The notes below the pieces were generated by a model. The model was not told the DNA's origin and did no database searches. It saw nothing but the letters and a program-made list of their open reading frames with translations. The translations under genes were made by a program, and so were the position numbers. A DNA stretch of 32,429 nucleotides from a virus: IMG/VR virus record IMGVR_UViG_3300027754_000285, positions 1 to 32,429 of that record. One strand, given 5' to 3'. Of this stretch, positions 1,908 through 27,731 are shown piece by piece (within the stretch, counting starts at the first letter, position 1; every line of letters begins with the position of its first letter).

Positions 1908-2162
1908 ATGGGCAAAATTGCTGATGCGGTGTCGACGGGGTCGCGTAGAGCGGCTTTGGAGGCTATGAGTGCAAAACTGGCTGACGATATGGATGCTGCG
2001 CCGCCTGCGGTCGTTGCTCAGATCGCCGGTCGGTTGTCGGCCGTCCTCGCCGAGCTTGAGGCGTTGCCGAGTGTGAAGGAGGTGTCAAAGTTTGATGAGA
2101 TCGCAAACAGACGTTCGTCTAGGCGTGCAGTTGCCGACAACAGAGTCGAAACCACCGGCTAG
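1908..2162 (+). CDS. Terminase small-subunit-like protein
   Basis: 84 aa. It has the compact helical pattern of the short proteins that precede terL in many actinophages: a GSRRAALEAM segment near the N-terminus, an alanine-rich helix, then LAELEALPSVKEVSKFDEIA and a basic RRSSRRA patch. These proteins are thought to act as the DNA-recognition subunit of terminase. Its 3' end overlaps the start of terL by about 70 bp, and its internal AAGGAGG (2076-2082) is the ribosome-binding site for terL. The gene lies directly downstream of the DnaA/iteron region. The role rests mainly on position and general resemblance. Confidence 0.55.
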   Translation: MGKIADAVSTGSRRAALEAMSAKLADDMDAAPPAVVAQIAGRLSAVLAELEALPSVKEVSKFDEIANRRSSRRAVADNRVETTG

Positions 2163-3591
2163 GTTGCTTGGTGCTTCTAAAGAGGCTGTGGAGTTTGCTG
2201 AAGCTGCAGGTTTACATCTCGATCCGTGGCAGCAGCATGTTTTGACTGAGGGTTTGGCTGAAACGGCTGATGGCAAGTGGGCTGCGTTTGAGGTTGCCAT
2301 CATCGTGGCGCGCCAGAACGGTAAAGGCTCGATTCTTGAGGCCCGCCAGTTATTTGGGCTGTTTGTGTTGCGTGAGCAGTTGGCGATCACTACAGCGCAC
2401 GAATTTAAAACGGCGTACGAGCATTTTGTTCGGATCACTCAGTTGATTGAGTCAAATCCTGATTTGGATCGCAAGGTTGCGCGTATTCGTCGTGGTGCTG
2501 GCGAGCAGGCGGTCGAGTTGAAGACTGGTGAGCGTTTGCGGTTCTTGGCGCGCTCTGGTGGCTCGGGTCGCGGTTTGTCGGGTGATGTTGTGTATTTGGA
2601 CGAGGCGTTTGATTTGTCGTCAGCGCAGATGGGCGCTTTGATCCCGACGTTGAGCGCGAAGCCGAATCCGCAGGTTTGGTACACCTCGAGTGCGCCGAGG
2701 TCGTCGTCAGAGTTTTTGTTGTCGTTGTGTAAGCGCGGCAAGGAAGGCATTTCACCAAGGTTGTATTTTGCCCAGTGGGATAATCCTCGTGGTGTTGATC
2801 CTGAGGATCGTTTGGCGTGGGCGCGTGCGAATCCTGCGATGGGGATCCGTATTTCGGAGGATCACATTGCTGCCGAGTTGGACTTGATGCGTTCGGTGCC
2901 GGACGAGTTTGCTCGTGAGCGTTTGGGTGTGCATGAACTGTCTCCGTTTGAGGCGCGTGATGTCAAAATTTCTCGTGAGGCTTGGGATTCAACTTGGGCG
3001 TATTGTCCACCTGGTTGTGTTGAGGAACATGTTCATAAAGATTTGTTTGCTGCTCCTGAGAAGAAACAGATTGTGATCGGTTTCGATGTCGACACCGATG
3101 GTGAGCGTGCAAGCATTTGTATTGCTGCGGGCAGTGTTGATTCACCTTATGTTGAGATCGTCGCTCACCATGATGGTGCTGCGTGGTTGCCGCAGCGTTT
3201 GTTTGAGCTGATTGTGCGTTGGGAACCTGTTGCTGTTGGTTGTTTTGGCGCGGGACCGGCTGGGGCGATGGTGGGTCCGATTCTTGCCCGTTTGTCTGAG
3301 GCCGGTTTGGATATAACCATTTTTAGGCAGATGGCCGGTGCGGAGTATCGGCAGGCTTGTGGCGGGTTTTATTTGGATGTTGTTGCTGGGAAGCTGCGTC
3401 GAGCTTTTGGGCAAGGTGTTTTGCAGGTCGCTGTGAATGATGCGACGGAGAAACTTGTTGGTGACTCTTGGATGTGGGATCGTCGTCGCGCTACATCTCC
3501 GCTGAGTCCTTTGTGTGCTGCTACCGTTGCACGAGGTCTTCTTCCTGTATTATCGGCAGAAGATCCAAAGCGACCTGTTTTCGCCGCCTAA
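2092..3591 (+). CDS. terL: Terminase large subunit
   Basis: 499 aa, the ATP-driven DNA-packaging motor and headful/cos nuclease. The ATPase domain has Walker A ARQNGKGS (residues 73-80) and Walker B VVYLDE (D170, E171). The C-terminal RNase H-like nuclease has its first aspartate in IGFDVDTDG (D332) and a late GDSWMWDRR motif. The middle nuclease motif, usually aspartate before a G/P-rich turn, reads GCFGAGPAG, so the expected Asp appears replaced by Phe or Cys. The start is TTG 2092 or ATG 2095; AAGGAGG at 2076-2082 suits both. It follows the small subunit and precedes a small membrane protein and the portal, the standard order. Confidence 0.93.
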   Translation: MMRSQTDVRLGVQLPTTESKPPARLLGASKEAVEFAEAAGLHLDPWQQHVLTEGLAETADGKWAAFEVAIIVARQNGKGSILEARQLFGLFVLREQLAITTAHEFKTAYEHFVRITQLIESNPDLDRKVARIRRGAGEQAVELKTGERLRFLARSGGSGRGLSGDVVYLDEAFDLSSAQMGALIPTLSAKPNPQVWYTSSAPRSSSEFLLSLCKRGKEGISPRLYFAQWDNPRGVDPEDRLAWARANPAMGIRISEDHIAAELDLMRSVPDEFARERLGVHELSPFEARDVKISREAWDSTWAYCPPGCVEEHVHKDLFAAPEKKQIVIGFDVDTDGERASICIAAGSVDSPYVEIVAHHDGAAWLPQRLFELIVRWEPVAVGCFGAGPAGAMVGPILARLSEAGLDITIFRQMAGAEYRQACGGFYLDVVAGKLRRAFGQGVLQVAVNDATEKLVGDSWMWDRRRATSPLSPLCAATVARGLLPVLSAEDPKRPVFAA

Positions 3592-10931: not shown

Positions 10932-13900
10932 ATGGCTGGCCTTACCGCTGTTGAACGACTGAAATTTGTATTACAGGTCGACGCTTCGGGAGGCATCAAA
11001 GCATTTGAGAAGTTCGGTCATGCTGCCGACAAAGAGTTGTCTAAAGTCCAGTCGAAGCTGGATAAGCAAGCAGCGCAGATGCAGAAGTACGGTGCTGGCG
11101 CTGTGGCGTTCGCCGGCACTGCCGGTGTCGCGTTGTTTAAGTTGTCTAAAGGCTGGCAGGAAGGCGCGATTGCTGCGGGCAGGTTTGCTGAGGCTACTGG
11201 CATCTCAACTGAGGAAGCTTCTCGTTTTATTGTTGTGACTGCAGGCTATGACCTTGAGTCAGGCAAGATGGTCAAAGCAATCGGCAAGATGGAGAAAGCT
11301 CTCGGCGGCAAAGCTCAAGCGTTTAGAGATGCAGGCATCGCAACTCTTGATGCGTCAGGCAAAGAGTTGTCGGCTCAACAAATCTTTTTGAACTCGATTG
11401 ATGTCCTCAACAAAATAGAGGATCAGTCCGCCAAGTCTGTAATGGCTGCAAAACTGTTTGGTCGTGACTGGCAGAACATGGCTGTGATGATCGGTGCGGG
11501 CTCCGATGAGTTACTCAAACGGTTTGCTGCTGTGCGCGAAGATCAAGTGTTCGGCAAGGGCGAAGTCAACGATGCATACAAGTATCGTGATGCGCTTAAA
11601 GATCTTGGTAACTCTTTCAAAGCGTTGAAGAACAGTATTGGTGCTGGTGCCGCACCAATGTTTGCAGGCTTAGCTACTGGGGTCACTAAAGCTGTTGACG
11701 GACTGAACAGTGTCAACAAAGCTTCCGGTGGGGTCGTAGGCAACATTCTCGCTACTGGCACTGCGGCTATCGGTACGGCAGGCGCTTTGGCGTTTGTTGC
11801 AGGATCTGCAGTTAAGGCAAGAGACAAGTTTTCAGTAGTTGGCGCTACCGGCTTACGGTCGTTGAACAATGTTGGCAAGGCCGCTTTGGGCGCTGGTGTG
11901 CTTGTTGCCGGTTTTGCGTTGGTTACTGCCTCGATGGCTCAAGCTTCGCAAGAAGCCAAAGATCGTGTTGACGATTTTGCTGCTTCGATGACCGCTTCTG
12001 GCAGGACTGCTGAAGAACAAGCTAAGCAGACTATTGGTGTGTTTTTAGCAAAAACGCCTGAGCTTGCAGCAGCGATGACTGAAGCCGGTTTGAGTACAAA
12101 CGATTTGTACAATGCCATTCTTGAAGGTGGGAAAGCTCTTCTAGTTTTTCAGGAGAGGATTTCTGATACTAAAACATCTTTGCATGGGATGGTTGATAGA
12201 GATCCTTTCTATTTGACTCATGGGTTGATTGATACACGCGACGCTTACATTGGTGTCAACACCGAAATTGATGCCAATATTGAAGCTCAGCAACTTGCAG
12301 GCGAAACCGAACACGAAGCTGCTGATCGTATTAAAGAAACAGCAGCTGCTTTAGATCTAAAACTGCAAGCGCAGAAGAAAGTTCGTGAAGAAGCGCAGGC
12401 TGCGCGTTTAGAAGCGTTGCGTGGCATTGATGTTGAAGCAGATTTGCGTTTGGCGCAACGCAACACCATTGACGCAATGGTCGATTACAAAGATTCGTTG
12501 CATGATGGAAGTTTGTCAGCGCTTGACCGTGCAATTGCTACTGACAAGATGGTCAGCGCTATCAGAGGCGAGGCCGAAGCGTTTGCTAACAGCAAACATG
12601 ATGTTGAAGGCAGCAAAAAATCTATTGAAGATCAGATAGCGGTCATTGATCTTTGGGCTTCAAGGCTTCAACCAGACGACCCGTTGTTAAAAGGGTTGCG
12701 TGATCTTGCTGAAAAGTTGAAGGTTGCTTCGGGAAGCTATTCGCCTGGTCTTGCAAGATTGTTGAATGTGGACAGGGTCGGCTCGTACGTTGCGCCTCCC
12801 TATGTCCCGTACGTTGCCCCTAAAGCTGGGAAGCGCAGTGGCGGCGGCGGTTCTGGCGATGGTGTTATTGATACCTCAGAACTTCAAGACATCATTGAGC
12901 AGGAGATGGCTACGGGCGGTGTCGCTAAGGGCGGTGTGACGCTTGTTGGTGAGCAAGGTCCTGAGTTGGTGATGATGGCCGGTGGTGAGCATGTGCTTAC
13001 TGCTGCTCAAACCAAATCGTTGGGGTCTGATTCTGGGTCTTCGGCACAGTCGGATCAGTCGTTGTGGGCGGCGCAACTCGAGATGGGCGACATCTCAGCG
13101 AAGCAATACAAGCAGTTGCTTTCTGATCGTTTGAACAGTTTTGAAAAGTATTCGTCGGAATACATGTCGATTTGGCGTGAGATTCGCGGGATCGATCAGG
13201 ACGCTGCGAACGCTTCTAAAGCTCACGATCAAGAGATCCGCAACAATCAAGACGCAATGTTTGAGCTTGGCGAAATATCTGTTGGGTTTTACAAGCAGAT
13301 ATTGAAATCTCGTTTGAATGGTTTCCAAAAGTATTCGTCGGATTACATGTCTGTGTACGGTCAGATTCGTGGCATTGAGAAAGATGCTGCGGATAAGTCG
13401 GAAAAAGATTTGGAATCTGCACAGGCTTTTAAGGAAGCAGCAATTCAGAAGCATTTGGACAAAGTCCGTGCGTTGTATCAGCAAGCTGAGAACAAACGAA
13501 ACTACGACGAAGCAGACTTTGCTTCTAAGCGTGCTGTGCGCGACTTTGGGCAGTCTCTTTCTGAAGCTGTGCGAACTAAGAATGATCGCAGCGGCAAGGT
13601 CACAGATAAGGATCGACAAGACGCTGTTGATTCGGCGCGCGACGCTGCGGATAGCGCAGCGAAAGCTTTGTTGGATCGTGCCGGTGCTGCTGCTGTTGCG
13701 TGGGGGTTCGCTGAAGGCACCCCTGAGTATGCGAGGAGTGTACGTCGATGGTTGTTGAACGATGAGGCAACTAACCCAAATTTGAAGCCTGCTATTGACA
13801 GGGTTTTGTCTGGCATCCCACAGATGGCTATGGGCGGTTTGGTTACGTCACCTACGGTCGCAATGGTCGGCGAGGCCGGTCCTGAAGCGGTGATCCCGTT

Positions 13901-14015
13901 GTCTAAAGTTGGGCAGATGGGCGCAACGTATAACATCACGGTGAACACTGCTGCTGATCCGAACTCGGTTGTGGCTGCGATCAAAAGGTACACAAAGAAT
14001 GGTGGGGTGTTGTGA
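10932..14015 (+). CDS. Tape measure protein
   Basis: 1027 aa, by far the longest gene. It is mostly helical, with hydrophobic segments around residues 52-70 and 255-340 and coiled-coil-rich stretches. Two GE-x-GPE motifs typical of tape measures occur, in VTLVGEQGPELVMMAGGEHV (about residues 667-686) and VAMVGEAGPEAVIPLS (about 976-992). Residues ~716-764 and ~777-825 are an internal duplication (LEMGDIS...YKQLL versus FELGEIS...YKQIL). The protein sets tail length and may help DNA entry; at about 1.5 Å per residue it predicts a tail near 150 nm. Its stop overlaps the next start. Confidence 0.9.
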   Translation: MAGLTAVERLKFVLQVDASGGIKAFEKFGHAADKELSKVQSKLDKQAAQMQKYGAGAVAFAGTAGVALFKLSKGWQEGAIAAGRFAEATGISTEEASRFIVVTAGYDLESGKMVKAIGKMEKALGGKAQAFRDAGIATLDASGKELSAQQIFLNSIDVLNKIEDQSAKSVMAAKLFGRDWQNMAVMIGAGSDELLKRFAAVREDQVFGKGEVNDAYKYRDALKDLGNSFKALKNSIGAGAAPMFAGLATGVTKAVDGLNSVNKASGGVVGNILATGTAAIGTAGALAFVAGSAVKARDKFSVVGATGLRSLNNVGKAALGAGVLVAGFALVTASMAQASQEAKDRVDDFAASMTASGRTAEEQAKQTIGVFLAKTPELAAAMTEAGLSTNDLYNAILEGGKALLVFQERISDTKTSLHGMVDRDPFYLTHGLIDTRDAYIGVNTEIDANIEAQQLAGETEHEAADRIKETAAALDLKLQAQKKVREEAQAARLEALRGIDVEADLRLAQRNTIDAMVDYKDSLHDGSLSALDRAIATDKMVSAIRGEAEAFANSKHDVEGSKKSIEDQIAVIDLWASRLQPDDPLLKGLRDLAEKLKVASGSYSPGLARLLNVDRVGSYVAPPYVPYVAPKAGKRSGGGGSGDGVIDTSELQDIIEQEMATGGVAKGGVTLVGEQGPELVMMAGGEHVLTAAQTKSLGSDSGSSAQSDQSLWAAQLEMGDISAKQYKQLLSDRLNSFEKYSSEYMSIWREIRGIDQDAANASKAHDQEIRNNQDAMFELGEISVGFYKQILKSRLNGFQKYSSDYMSVYGQIRGIEKDAADKSEKDLESAQAFKEAAIQKHLDKVRALYQQAENKRNYDEADFASKRAVRDFGQSLSEAVRTKNDRSGKVTDKDRQDAVDSARDAADSAAKALLDRAGAAAVAWGFAEGTPEYARSVRRWLLNDEATNPNLKPAIDRVLSGIPQMAMGGLVTSPTVAMVGEAGPEAVIPLSKVGQMGATYNITVNTAADPNSVVAAIKRYTKNGGVL

Positions 14016-24236: not shown

Positions 24237-24376
24237 CGTACTCAACAGACCCGTTGGACGACATGCATCGTGAAGCAATGCAAGCGATCGAGAGGATCCG
24301 CAAAACCGTAGATATCGCACGGCAAATCGTTGCCGAGTGGGAACCAAAACCGTTACCAAAATCAGAGAGGAACTGA
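24233..24376 (+). CDS. 47-residue helical protein
   Basis: GTG 24233 overlaps the previous stop (GTGA); ATG 24215 in the same frame would overlap more and is less likely. The product is mainly one amphipathic helix (DDMHREAMQAIERIRKTVDI) and a short basic tail (PLPKSERN). It ends two bases before the nuclease gene, whose AGAGAGGAAC ribosome-binding site lies in its 3' end. Function unknown. Confidence 0.5.
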   Translation: MTYSTDPLDDMHREAMQAIERIRKTVDIARQIVAEWEPKPLPKSERN

Positions 24377-24377
24377 G

Positions 24378-26036
24378 ATGGCAAAAGCAGCGAATTCGTT
24401 CAACAACGAAACCACAACAGGGTTACGCACAGGTCGAGGCGGTTTTATGCGCGCCGCGAACGACACCCCATACGTCACCGACCCCACAGGAGCCCTCACA
24501 AAAACGGGGGAACGCAAAGGGTTACCGAAACGTATTGCGTACGGCTCACCAAGCAGTTTCGGCAAACTCATTGAGAACACCACAAACCTGCAGAAATGGG
24601 GTGAACGCCGTGTTGTGCTTGGCCTTGGCGCAGACCTGACGTTGGTTGCCGAATGTGCGGCGCTCACCAAACTTGATGTTGATTCCGACGATTACAAGCA
24701 GACCGCAGACCGCATCATTGTTGCAGCAAAACAGGCTGCTGAAGCATCGTTGGCTGCTGATCGTGGCACACACGGCCACGCGATCCTTGAAGACGACGAC
24801 GAAGGCCGACCCTGGTTAGATCGTGCAGCCAACGGTGAACTGCTCGGCATCCCTGTTGAAGCGCAACAAAACATTGTGTCGAACTGGCGTGCAATGCTCA
24901 AAGAAACAGGGTTGCAGATCTTAGAAACCGAAGCAGCGTGCGTTGACGACGTTTGGAAACTCGCCGGCACGCTCGACAACACAGCGCAACTCACCAAAGA
25001 CCTCACGTTTGTGTTAGCCGGTGGCGAACTCGTCACAATCCATGCAGACACCATTTTGGTTGTTGACAAAAAGACGGGGCAGAAACGAACCAACCAAGCT
25101 GGTGCTGTCATGTACTGGCATGGGTACGCCATCCAGGTGGCGAGCTACGCGCAATCAGTGCCATATGACACTGTGGACGAGGTGCGCGGGATCTGGGGTT
25201 ACGAGATCTCACAGCAACATGCGCTGATCGCTCACATCGATATTGCTGCAGCGATTGATGGTGCCGACACCGGCCTTGTCACACTTGTCTACGTCGACCT
25301 GAACGCCGGTCGTGAGCATGGTGGGCGTGTGTGTGCCGAAGCAAAAGACTGGGCGAAACGAAACGACCTGTTCTCCACCGAATTACACCGGATCGGCGAC
25401 CCCGAGCTTGCAAACGTGGGCGGTGTCACCCCATTGGTGGTTACGTCAGATGACGAAAGTGTGGCACCGGCACCCGTGTCAAAGCTTCGTGCAGCACAAA
25501 ACGAACGCCTCACCCAAACCAAAGCTGCTGAACGCCCCTCACCGCGTCGCCCGTTGCCGACCGAAGGTGCTGATCTGTCAGATGCACAGTACCGATCGGC
25601 GTGGGACGCACTCGCTGCACGATTCTCGAGTGGCGACATCGCTGAGATGCCAGATACCGCAAGGTGGCGTACCGAGATCGTGAGACAAGCACGCCAAGCC
25701 GGTGTGTCAATCCAAACCGATGGTGGAATGACCGCACGCCGCTTCGACCTGTATCGCGCCATTGTTGGCATCATGCACGAACAAGAACGCGACGACATCA
25801 TGCGAGCCCTCATCGAAGCAGCCACAGGTCGAGCACACGTTCTGGATCCTGTAATCCCCCTCGGCGAAGCACTCGGGCAATGTAACCACATTGAAGCAAA
25901 TATGTTGGTGCGATTCGTTGACGCATACCAGGGTGGCATGCTTGTATGTGGATTCGACCTTGACGGGCGATTCGTTGTGATGAGGATCGAAAACGACTCC
26001 AGCCTGACTTTGACCTTGCCGGAAGGTGCCAAGTGA
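24378..26036 (+). CDS. PD-(D/E)XK nuclease, Cas4/RecB-like
   Basis: 552 aa, ATG 24378 behind AGAGAGGAAC. The central part has the ordered RecB-type catalytic set: THGHAIL (H132/H134), acidic residues in LETEAACVDD, AGTLDN (D200), VVDKKTG (D230, K232) and the helix HGYAIQVASYAQ (Q253, Y257). Such enzymes degrade or resect DNA ends; in phages they act in recombination or host-DNA turnover. Residues 1-110 and ~300-552 are extra: a proline-rich linker (ERPSPRRPLPTEG) and a C-terminal acidic domain of unknown function. No four-cysteine iron-sulphur cluster is seen, so it is less like true Cas4. Its stop overlaps both downstream frames. Confidence 0.75.
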   Translation: MAKAANSFNNETTTGLRTGRGGFMRAANDTPYVTDPTGALTKTGERKGLPKRIAYGSPSSFGKLIENTTNLQKWGERRVVLGLGADLTLVAECAALTKLDVDSDDYKQTADRIIVAAKQAAEASLAADRGTHGHAILEDDDEGRPWLDRAANGELLGIPVEAQQNIVSNWRAMLKETGLQILETEAACVDDVWKLAGTLDNTAQLTKDLTFVLAGGELVTIHADTILVVDKKTGQKRTNQAGAVMYWHGYAIQVASYAQSVPYDTVDEVRGIWGYEISQQHALIAHIDIAAAIDGADTGLVTLVYVDLNAGREHGGRVCAEAKDWAKRNDLFSTELHRIGDPELANVGGVTPLVVTSDDESVAPAPVSKLRAAQNERLTQTKAAERPSPRRPLPTEGADLSDAQYRSAWDALAARFSSGDIAEMPDTARWRTEIVRQARQAGVSIQTDGGMTARRFDLYRAIVGIMHEQERDDIMRALIEAATGRAHVLDPVIPLGEALGQCNHIEANMLVRFVDAYQGGMLVCGFDLDGRFVVMRIENDSSLTLTLPEGAK

Positions 26037-27342
26037 CATGGTTACATATCCCACCGCAATACATTTGTGCTCCGGTTACGGAGGATTTGAACTCGCCCTC
26101 AGACCGTGGAACGTACGCACCGTATGTCACGTTGAGCGGGACGCATACGCGGCGGCCATCCTCATGGAGCGGATGGAACAAAAGAGATTGGATCAAGCCC
26201 CTATTTGGGACGACATCGACACCTTCGACGGCGAACCTTGGTGCGGAAAAGTGGATCTCATCACTGCCGGTTTCCCATGCCAACCGTTCTCTGCTGCCGG
26301 AGCGCACCGTGGACTTGACGATGACCGTTGGCTCTGGCCTTCAATCGCAAGAATTATCGCTGAGATACGACCCCGTTTCGTTGTGTTGGAAAACGTGCCA
26401 CCAGTTATTCGACACGGATTACCCGCTGTCCTCGCAGACCTTACCCAACTCGGCTTCGATGCGGAATGGGGATTGTACTCCGCAGCCGATGTTGGAGCCC
26501 CTCACAGACGGCAACGATGGTGGTGTGTGGCCTACGCCAACAGCGTTCGACGCGTCGACACCGGCGAATATTTCGCCGGAAGCGAGGGAACGCCAGTTAC
26601 GTCGAGGCGACCCGAACGGTTCGCGCAGAACCTCATCGGGATCGTTGGCGAAAGAAGTGTTATGGCCGACTCCGGTAGCGAACGACACACAACGATCACC
26701 GCAAGCAGCATTGGAAGCGAAACTGCGGATGGGTGGAAACCGGACAGAGATCACCTCGTTGAACGTGATATCGAAGCTGTGGCCGACCCCAGCAGCACAC
26801 GACGCAAAGATGACAGGGCAGATAGAGAACAATCGGCACTCGGCGATGCTGCCCGAAGCGGCAGTTCTGTGGCCGACACCAACAGCGGGGATAGCGCACC
26901 GTGGGACGGATCCCGAGAGAACCAACGATCGCGCCGGCGCACCAACATTCAAAGCGGTAGCGATGATGTGGCCGACACCGAGAGCGATGGAATCGGTGAG
27001 ATCATCACCGAAGGGGACAGCGGGACCAACATTGATAGCAGCAGCAGTTGGACGCGACCCGCTCGACCCGCTGCCGTGGCCTCCGCAACCAAAAGAGGAA
27101 TCGGAAAAGATGACATACGCGCAGGAACTGGAAGAGTTTTCCCGCCGACAAGAGATGACACCGAAGGCTGGCAACAGTGGATCAACGAAGGTCGACCTGA
27201 ACCCGTGGTTTGTCGCAGCACTGATGGGCCTCCCAGCGGACTGGCTGACTCACTCCACCTCGGCGGTAACGGACTCGTGCCGCAATGCGCTACAGAAGCA
27301 ATCAGACAACTACTTAACAGAGCAGGATGGGAAATAACATGA
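26026..27342 (+). CDS. C5 cytosine DNA methyltransferase (frame A)
   Basis: 438 aa from GTG 26026; ATG 26038 is an alternative start (434 aa). Motif I HLCSGYGGFE (13-22), motif IV GFPCQPFSAAG with catalytic Cys85, motif VI LENV (121-124) and motif VIII APHRRQRWW (158-166) are all in order. Motif IX/X follows at the end (FPPTRDDTEGW, then LGGNGLVPQCATEAIRQLL). The ~200-residue region between, where target recognition lies, is unusually polar with repeated VAD(T/P/S)-type segments. Rare codons AGA, CGA, GGA and AGC are frequent here, unlike neighbours. That is explained by a second ORF in the +1 frame along almost the whole gene. It probably protects phage DNA from restriction. The target is not readable. 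Confidence 0.85.
   Translation: MPSDMVTYPTAIHLCSGYGGFELALRPWNVRTVCHVERDAYAAAILMERMEQKRLDQAPIWDDIDTFDGEPWCGKVDLITAGFPCQPFSAAGAHRGLDDDRWLWPSIARIIAEIRPRFVVLENVPPVIRHGLPAVLADLTQLGFDAEWGLYSAADVGAPHRRQRWWCVAYANSVRRVDTGEYFAGSEGTPVTSRRPERFAQNLIGIVGERSVMADSGSERHTTITASSIGSETADGWKPDRDHLVERDIEAVADPSSTRRKDDRADREQSALGDAARSGSSVADTNSGDSAPWDGSRENQRSRRRTNIQSGSDDVADTESDGIGEIITEGDSGTNIDSSSSWTRPARPAAVASATKRGIGKDDIRAGTGRVFPPTRDDTEGWQQWINEGRPEPVVCRSTDGPPSGLADSLHLGGNGLVPQCATEAIRQLLNRAGWEIT
26033..27337 (+). CDS. WPTP-repeat protein fully overlapping the methyltransferase (frame B)
   Basis: 434 aa in the frame one base ahead of the methyltransferase. GTG 26033 forms the usual GTGA overlap with the nuclease stop, and GGAAGG lies 7 bases upstream. 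It has five W-P-T-P motifs (Trp codons at 26528, 26663, 26780, 26870, 26969), preceded by LPVSHANRS, RYDPVSLCWKT and SMRNGD, and followed by DLNPWFVAALMGLPADWLT. I remember many phage and bacterial database proteins with just this series. Shifted by one base the motifs become methyltransferase motifs: SHANRS/PCQPFS, CWKT/VLEN, MRNG/DAEW, WPTPTA/VAYANS. So this is either a true dual-coded protein, the partner of a frameshift product, or a shadow of conserved methylase codons. Translation is unproven. Confidence 0.5.
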   Translation: MTWLHIPPQYICAPVTEDLNSPSDRGTYAPYVTLSGTHTRRPSSWSGWNKRDWIKPLFGTTSTPSTANLGAEKWISSLPVSHANRSLLPERTVDLTMTVGSGLQSQELSLRYDPVSLCWKTCHQLFDTDYPLSSQTLPNSASMRNGDCTPQPMLEPLTDGNDGGVWPTPTAFDASTPANISPEARERQLRRGDPNGSRRTSSGSLAKEVLWPTPVANDTQRSPQAALEAKLRMGGNRTEITSLNVISKLWPTPAAHDAKMTGQIENNRHSAMLPEAAVLWPTPTAGIAHRGTDPERTNDRAGAPTFKAVAMMWPTPRAMESVRSSPKGTAGPTLIAAAVGRDPLDPLPWPPQPKEESEKMTYAQELEEFSRRQEMTPKAGNSGSTKVDLNPWFVAALMGLPADWLTHSTSAVTDSCRNALQKQSDNYLTEQDGK

Positions 27343-27731
27343 GCGAACACAAATACCAGTACCGAGCACAATGCACCAACGTCGTTGACGGTGACACCAT
27401 CGATGTCACACTCGACCTCGGGTTACACCTCACCAGCACACAACGTGTACGGATCCTTGGTGTGAACTGTTCTGAGCTACACGCCAAAGACCCTGTGGTG
27501 CGTTACGCAGCGTTAGCCGCAAAAGAATACACACAAGAGATCCTGACAGAACTGCACGAAGTCGCACACGACACAGGTAACGACTGGCCGCTGATCATCA
27601 CCACAACAAAATCTGATTCGTTCGGCAGATACTTGGCGACCGTGAGCAGTGTTGATTTCCCTGAATGGGATCTTGGTGCAGCACTCATCCTCAACGGTCA
27701 CGCCGTCCCATTCATGGTTGGTAAGCCATGA
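27339..27731 (+). CDS. Staphylococcal-nuclease-like (SNase) protein
   Basis: 130 aa, ATG 27339 overlapping the methyltransferase stop. The OB-fold nuclease pattern is visible: VVDGDTIDVTLDLG (D17, D19), RVRILGVNCSEL (R38, E46) and DSFGRYLATV with the third catalytic arginine. These match the Arg-Glu-Arg set of thermonuclease. There is no signal peptide, so it acts inside the cell, perhaps on host DNA or RNA or in DNA-end processing. Overlaps the next gene by ATGA. Confidence 0.75.
   Translation: MSEHKYQYRAQCTNVVDGDTIDVTLDLGLHLTSTQRVRILGVNCSELHAKDPVVRYAALAAKEYTQEILTELHEVAHDTGNDWPLIITTTKSDSFGRYLATVSSVDFPEWDLGAALILNGHAVPFMVGKP

Follow-up and report, generated by a model that had tools for sequence, protein, structure and literature searches.

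The viral DNA under study, record IMGVR_UViG_3300027754_000285 of IMG/VR (positions 1 to 32,429), was analysed as a whole and is referred to here as the window. It contains two reading frames of the same DNA, frame A (26026 to 27342) and frame B (26033 to 27337), which are both open over about 434 codons and specify a C5-cytosine methyltransferase protein, designated alpha, and a WPTP-repeat protein in the +1 frame, designated beta. The two proteins are very probably the parts of one DNA-methylating enzyme. A probability of about 0.85 is assigned to the reading that the locus encodes one two-subunit C5-cytosine DNA methyltransferase, the subunits of which are encoded in two frames, translated from separate starts and assembled in the manner of M.HhaI. 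In this enzyme, alpha would contribute the S-adenosylmethionine-binding and catalytic motifs I to VIII along with motif X, whereas beta would provide the motif IX helix and probably, with its WPTP stretch, the target-recognition region. Both subunits would be translated from their own starts, located 5 nucleotides apart behind one Shine-Dalgarno-like sequence, and would bind each other to form an enzyme that may methylate phage (or host) DNA, for example as a protection against host restriction. The occurrence of a C5 methyltransferase and a WPTP protein in two open frames had been claimed by an original prediction, and the coordinates were confirmed, as was the identity of the proteins by matches to PF00145, PHROG 363 and PHROG 1008. 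The proposal of a dual-coding pair was likewise sustained in that both frames are coding; the notion of an unrelated second protein was not, since frame B appears to supply the motif IX that frame A lacks.

The features of the locus are as follows:

26021 to 26026, plus strand: Shine-Dalgarno-like sequence GGAAGG, a putative ribosome-binding signal recognized in the nucleotide sequence.
26033 to 27337, plus strand: frame B, encoding beta, a WPTP-repeat protein of 434 amino acids in the +1 frame (PHROG 1008 match, shuffling, homologue alignment).
26038 to 27342, plus strand: frame A, encoding alpha, a C5-cytosine methyltransferase (PF00145 and PHROG 363 matches, translation, homologue alignment).
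26062 to 26544, plus strand: catalytic core of alpha with motifs I to VIII (core profile match).
26275 to 26283, plus strand: motif IV of alpha, PCQ with the catalytic cysteine; the +1 reading around it is the SHANRS stretch of beta (sequence).
26384 to 26395, plus strand: CWKT of beta, the +1 reading of the alpha motif VI LENV (ENV at 26389 to 26397; sequence and synonymous constraint).
26528 to 26980, plus strand: five WPTP repeats of beta, the first at 26528 to 26539 and the last at 26969 to 26980 (sequence and constrained silent sites).
27197 to 27244, plus strand: LNPWFVAALMGLPADW of beta, the probable motif IX equivalent near the end of the protein; the alpha reading is the EPVVCRSTDGPPSGLA stretch (alignment; silent-site z up to 24, in a locus set partly ascertained on that motif).
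27265 to 27282, plus strand: motif X of alpha, GNGLVP, again in frame A (alignments).

Frame A matched the Pfam family PF00145 with an E value of 5.5e-36 and PHROG 363 with an E value of 1e-59. Motifs I to VIII and X were recognized in the deduced protein, and motifs I, IV (PCQ), VI (ENV) and VIII are invariant in the homologue alignment. Motif IX was not found in frame A, the Pfam match of which ends at profile position 169 of 324, and alpha is therefore regarded as the catalytic subunit of a C5 methyltransferase rather than as a complete enzyme. Frame B matched PHROG 1008, annotated as 'DNA methyltransferase', with an E value of 3.7e-33 and the best stretch at frame B positions 81 to 265; searches of Pfam and NCBIfam with frame B gave no match. 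The motif sets of the two frames are thus complementary, and the frame B motifs are one-base shifts of methylase motifs, as originally predicted: CWKT corresponds to LEN(V) read in the +1 frame, and LNPWFVAALMG is located at 27197. The middle part of alpha is of low complexity with VADT-type repeats, the five WPTP repeats of beta being read as VAYA, MADS, VADP, VADT and VADT in frame A. The start of the motif IX equivalent in beta and motif X in alpha are separated by 68 nucleotides in the window and by 65 nucleotides in most relatives.

Related loci were gathered by frame B profiles from viral contigs and from bacterial genomes, and additionally by frame A only. The window frame B alone retrieved nothing as a query against the viral contigs, and an alignment was needed instead; the first alignment used on the genome contigs was too divergent. 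As the sampling consisted of pattern scans, all counts refer to the matches listed and are not population frequencies. The frame B motif LNPx(W/F)VEWLMGxP was located in the +1 frame of a methyltransferase core in 100 of 101 classified viral loci and in 72 of 73 classified bacterial-genome loci, the latter representing, as judged from the record titles, Proteobacteria, Actinomycetota, Bacillota, Treponema, Verrucomicrobiales, Bacteroidetes and others. A census by frame A alone yielded 100 complete and distinct genes, 98 of which contain the motif one base out of frame, and an IX-like motif within frame A was present in a single one. These data bear out the expectation that genes for WPTP proteins generally lie within those of methyltransferases. 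The census comprises 85 genes with motif X in frame A and motif IX in frame B, seven with motifs IX and X both in frame B, six with motif IX in frame B but without a recognised motif X, one single-chain form (L029) and one unassigned gene. The median overlap of the frames is about 280 codons. In the split form (L214, L216, L242, L011, L233, L251 and L021), alpha stops soon past motif VIII and a beta with motifs IX and X still overlaps alpha. Five apparently identical two-frame loci (L161, L162, L163, L165 and L166) are present on one assembled chromosome of an uncultured Roseovarius (OX638333.1), and the methyltransferase gene of Escherichia coli PCP07014 (L310, 801 to 1562) is called a pseudogene in RefSeq for an internal stop.

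The open state of frame B was examined by shuffling the synonymous codons of frame A in the window with the frame A protein held fixed. The shuffled sequences gained 8.5 +/- 1.8 stops in frame B and none of 20,000 was stop-free, in agreement with the original prediction of an openness beyond chance. The real frame B scored 265 bits with a profile from which the window and its four closest relatives had been excluded, compared with 111 +/- 12 bits and a maximum of 158 bits for the shuffles. Since the shuffles keep 111 of the 265 bits, about 40% of the score of frame B can be ascribed to the frame A amino acids and the remainder cannot. Over 158 loci, 562 frame B stops were expected and none was present in the tested stretches, whereas the third frame contained 1854 stops versus 1795 expected. 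The reverse shuffling of frame B synonymous codons led to an expectation of 1154 frame A stops, of which none was observed; the stretch used in this analysis had been chosen as the open one. In these main tests related loci were counted separately, identical or near-identical ones having been removed. Chance or composition as the origin of the open frame B was ruled out by synonymous shuffling both ways along with the third-frame control. When the loci chosen by frame A were inspected over the fixed stretch from motif VI to motif IX, 82 of 86 had no frame B stop, compared with 18.1 expected; these 86 loci contain eight frame B stops versus 161 expected and 632 stops in the third frame. The frequent frame B stops that would speak against the original prediction were thus not encountered.

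Additional information was obtained from the silent sites of frame A, the third codon positions of which are the second positions of frame B. In frame-A-only loci, the mean conservation z of these positions was 4.8 versus 1.2 for the null, with the codon usage of each genome as the baseline. In a set of loci selected in part by motif IX, the most constrained silent columns were located at this motif, at the WPTP repeats and at CW(R/K)T and MRNG. An internal control was provided by 26 loci with a late-opening frame B, in which z was 1.33 before the opening (null 1.16, no column above 4) and 2.80 after it (21% above 4). As the constraint appears in these loci only past the frame B opening, it points to frame B as its source, and frame B substitutions accordingly do not behave neutrally. 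In related pairs, which are not independent of one another, changes were distributed over frame A codon positions 1, 2 and 3 as 33, 20 and 47% within the overlap and as 19, 7 and 74% outside. An artefact of ascertainment on the LNP motif was checked and discarded by means of the census and the constraint test on frame-A-only loci. The stop-free frame B, the motif in 98 of 100 relatives and the constrained silent sites clearly indicate that both frames are under purifying selection.

The sequence LNPxWVEWLMGFPxGW in frame B is similar to motif IX of C5 methyltransferases, and its identity can be deduced from relatives in which the respective parts are joined. In 20 of 27 loci of the mycobacteriophage type, a single frame contains motifs I to VIII, the PTP repeats, EWMMGWP and motif X, and in four the module lies together with motif X in a different frame. 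L302, a single-chain protein, has matches to both PHROG 363 and PHROG 1008. Its AlphaFold model has a mean predicted local distance difference test (pLDDT) score of 72.6, with values of about 87 to 97 over motifs IX and X and low values over the PTP stretch, and it aligns with M.HhaI from end to end (positions 1 to 391) over 250 residues with a Z score of 23.6 and a root-mean-square deviation of 3.3. The presence of the same module between motifs I to VIII and X in a single chain aligning with M.HhaI supports the assignment of LNPxWVEWLMG as motif IX. In C5 methyltransferases, the target-recognition region is located between motifs VIII and IX. By analogy, the WPTP region of beta probably serves in target recognition because it occupies this position in the single-chain relatives. 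The single-chain forms among the mycobacteriophage-type loci (L282 to L307) retain a +1 open reading frame of about 90 to 190 codons, which contains between one and three PTP motifs and may be left over from an ancestor with two frames, and an extra insert PGLCQHCAAALRR...CCPDPN, similar to a small zinc-binding segment, was noticed in L287, L293 and their relatives. An alignment of beta fragments to the single-chain protein misplaced the fragments and was dropped.

Several observations weigh against the two-subunit enzyme and the role of beta in it. Beta alone is modelled poorly, with a mean pLDDT of 57 that is too low for a fold search, and the WPTP region is of low confidence in the single-chain model as well. 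When beta was spliced into alpha, the Pfam match spanned the whole profile in one of four loci (L013), with a small gain. Moreover, the target-recognition domain of the two-polypeptide methyltransferase M.EcoHK31I has been placed in its large subunit (PMC3404938), unlike the proposal made here for beta.

The start signals bear on the question of how both proteins would be produced. The alpha protein comprises 434 amino acids when translated from the ATG at 26038 and 438 amino acids when the GTG at 26026 is used. The extent of frame A from 26026 to 27342 given by the original prediction holds for the open frame; as a start, however, ATG 26038 is more likely than GTG 26026, because the GGAAGG sequence overlaps the latter. 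With this start both proteins would consist of exactly 434 amino acids, frame B beginning and ending 5 nucleotides ahead of frame A. The spacing between GGAAGG and the putative starts is 6 nucleotides for the frame B GTG at 26033 and 11 nucleotides for the frame A ATG, and the single GGAAGG could act as ribosome-binding signal for both. In relatives with a long beta, the starts are arranged as NTGAATGA[G/T], with an NTG for alpha and an ATG for beta 4 nucleotides on, in 48 of 119 loci, including 38 with a Shine-Dalgarno-like sequence. Among the relatives with a short beta, 21 of 27 loci have such a sequence ahead of the earliest position within alpha at which beta could start. These signals, together with the location of motif X, which is again in frame A, favour two separate starts over programmed frameshifting.

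Three other explanations of the locus were considered. According to one of them, frame B is untranslated and merely stays open as a by-product of codon usage and the conserved frame A protein. It may be argued for this explanation that the shuffles still reach 111 bits of inherited frame B similarity and that frame B openness is unremarkable in a few GC-rich relatives (L006, P 0.19). The absence of the 8.5 stops expected in the window, the 82 of 86 open loci where 18 were expected, the limitation of the silent-site constraint to regions with an open frame B and the presence of start codons and Shine-Dalgarno-like sequences render it extremely improbable. Programmed ribosomal frameshifting, which would join the frames into one polypeptide with motifs I to VIII from frame A and motif IX from frame B, is compatible with the domain order and with the single-chain relatives. 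It is nonetheless very unlikely to apply: beta has start signals of its own in both long-beta and short-beta loci, two opposite shifts would be required since motif X is back in frame A, and M.EcoHK31I functions as two polypeptides (PMC3404938).

It is also very unlikely that frame B encodes a separate protein with its own job, such as a regulator or a replication-associated protein, instead of a methyltransferase subunit. The lack of a confident fold for beta alone would fit this explanation, as would the N-terminal QLTLF of some Bacillota betas, which resembles a sliding-clamp motif. On the other hand, motif IX is located in beta and not in alpha in 98 of 100 relatives, the module is fused in frame with motifs I to VIII and X in 20 mycobacteriophage loci, and the module and motif X form the C-terminal half in the seven split loci. 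The N-terminus of beta contains (E/D)QLTLF, similar to the clamp motif QL(S/D)LF, in L144, L146, L147, L159, L160, L161, L167, L173, L176, L177, L183, L187 and L188, and also in L022 and L024; QLxLF was present in 17 loci, which were picked for having it, versus 0.22 expected from synonymous shuffling of alpha. An out-of-frame homing endonuclease of the ShiLan type was rejected as frame B has no match to an HNH family.

The two-subunit enzyme proposed here is of a kind already known, M.EcoHK31I being the two-polypeptide precedent. The beta polypeptide of this enzyme has a size of about 176 amino acids and M.EaeI is a relative; in 1995, Lee et al. reportedly located the small polypeptide within the gene of the large one in another frame. 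In M.EcoHK31I (YGGCCR), motifs I to VIII and X are specified by the large polypeptide and motif IX by the small one (PMC3404938), a distribution that, as compared by description only, is the same as in the window, whereas the beta of the window has 434 amino acids, contains WPTP repeats and extends over the entire alpha gene. The M.EcoHK31I gene was not found in the plasmids and E. coli genomes searched; homologues of the arrangement were found. The naturally split methyltransferase M.AquI (CYCGRG) also consists of two polypeptides (PMC3404938). Its small subunit contains both motifs IX and X, whereas motif X is kept in alpha in the window, which is thus not of the M.AquI type; an M.AquI-like distribution occurs in seven of 100 relatives, yet in overlapping frames. 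The mycobacteriophage DLane type (DLane gp65) shares with the window the catalytic core, the PTP repeats, EWMMGWP and motif X, but differs by its one frame and one chain in most loci. Paenibacillus phage Shelly shows the nested arrangement with gp55 and gp56, the latter labelled 'g55 internal gene' by the annotators; in contrast to the window, gp56 is a short beta that begins inside alpha behind its own Shine-Dalgarno-like sequence. The phage paper that was searched makes no mention of this overlap. The out-of-frame HNH insertions of the ShiLan type in phage methylases (PMC11855218) likewise place another coding frame within a phage methylase gene, but specify a mobile endonuclease and not a part of the enzyme. 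A description of family-wide dual coding was not found in the literature searched, with subscription papers and REBASE being outside its scope. The original prediction of an undescribed system can be maintained for this family-wide form, but not for the two-polypeptide principle; as far as this literature shows, the wide occurrence, the nearly complete overlap and the existence of a nested, split and single-chain series are new.

With regard to the genomic context, the dual-coding gene of the window is flanked by nuclease genes on both sides. The upstream neighbour (24330 to 26036) encodes a phage exonuclease (PHROG 466) and its stop overlaps the beta start, and the downstream neighbour (27327 to 27731) encodes a small endonuclease (PHROG 452), with an open reading frame that begins within the alpha end. 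The window also contains genes for a terminase large subunit (2092 to 3591) and a tape measure protein (10932 to 14015), and genes for RusA and a helicase are located further on from the methyltransferase locus.

In prokaryotes, long overlapping genes on the same strand are considered rare and difficult to prove. The family described here comprises well over a hundred examples with strong selection in both frames, and the second frame would complete an enzyme. The many WPTP and LNPxWVEWLMG proteins in the databases are accounted for in this way. The usual annotation overlooks beta, for which NCBIfam has no matching model, and cloning or recoding on the basis of frame A alone would, for many phage genes annotated as 'DNA cytosine methyltransferase', leave out part of the enzyme. 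There is about an even chance that near-complete dual coding on the same strand is the normal condition, of ancient origin, in a very large family of phage and prophage C5 methyltransferases across many bacterial phyla. Alpha and beta would then be mutually overprinted, and a single ribosome-binding site serving starts 4 to 5 nucleotides apart would ensure joint production of the two subunits; frame changes would convert nested, split and single-chain forms into one another, and some Bacillota betas would in addition have gained a sliding-clamp-like motif by which the enzyme could be tethered to replication. Because nested, split and single-chain forms coexist, this family allows direct tests of how overlapping genes arise and disappear.

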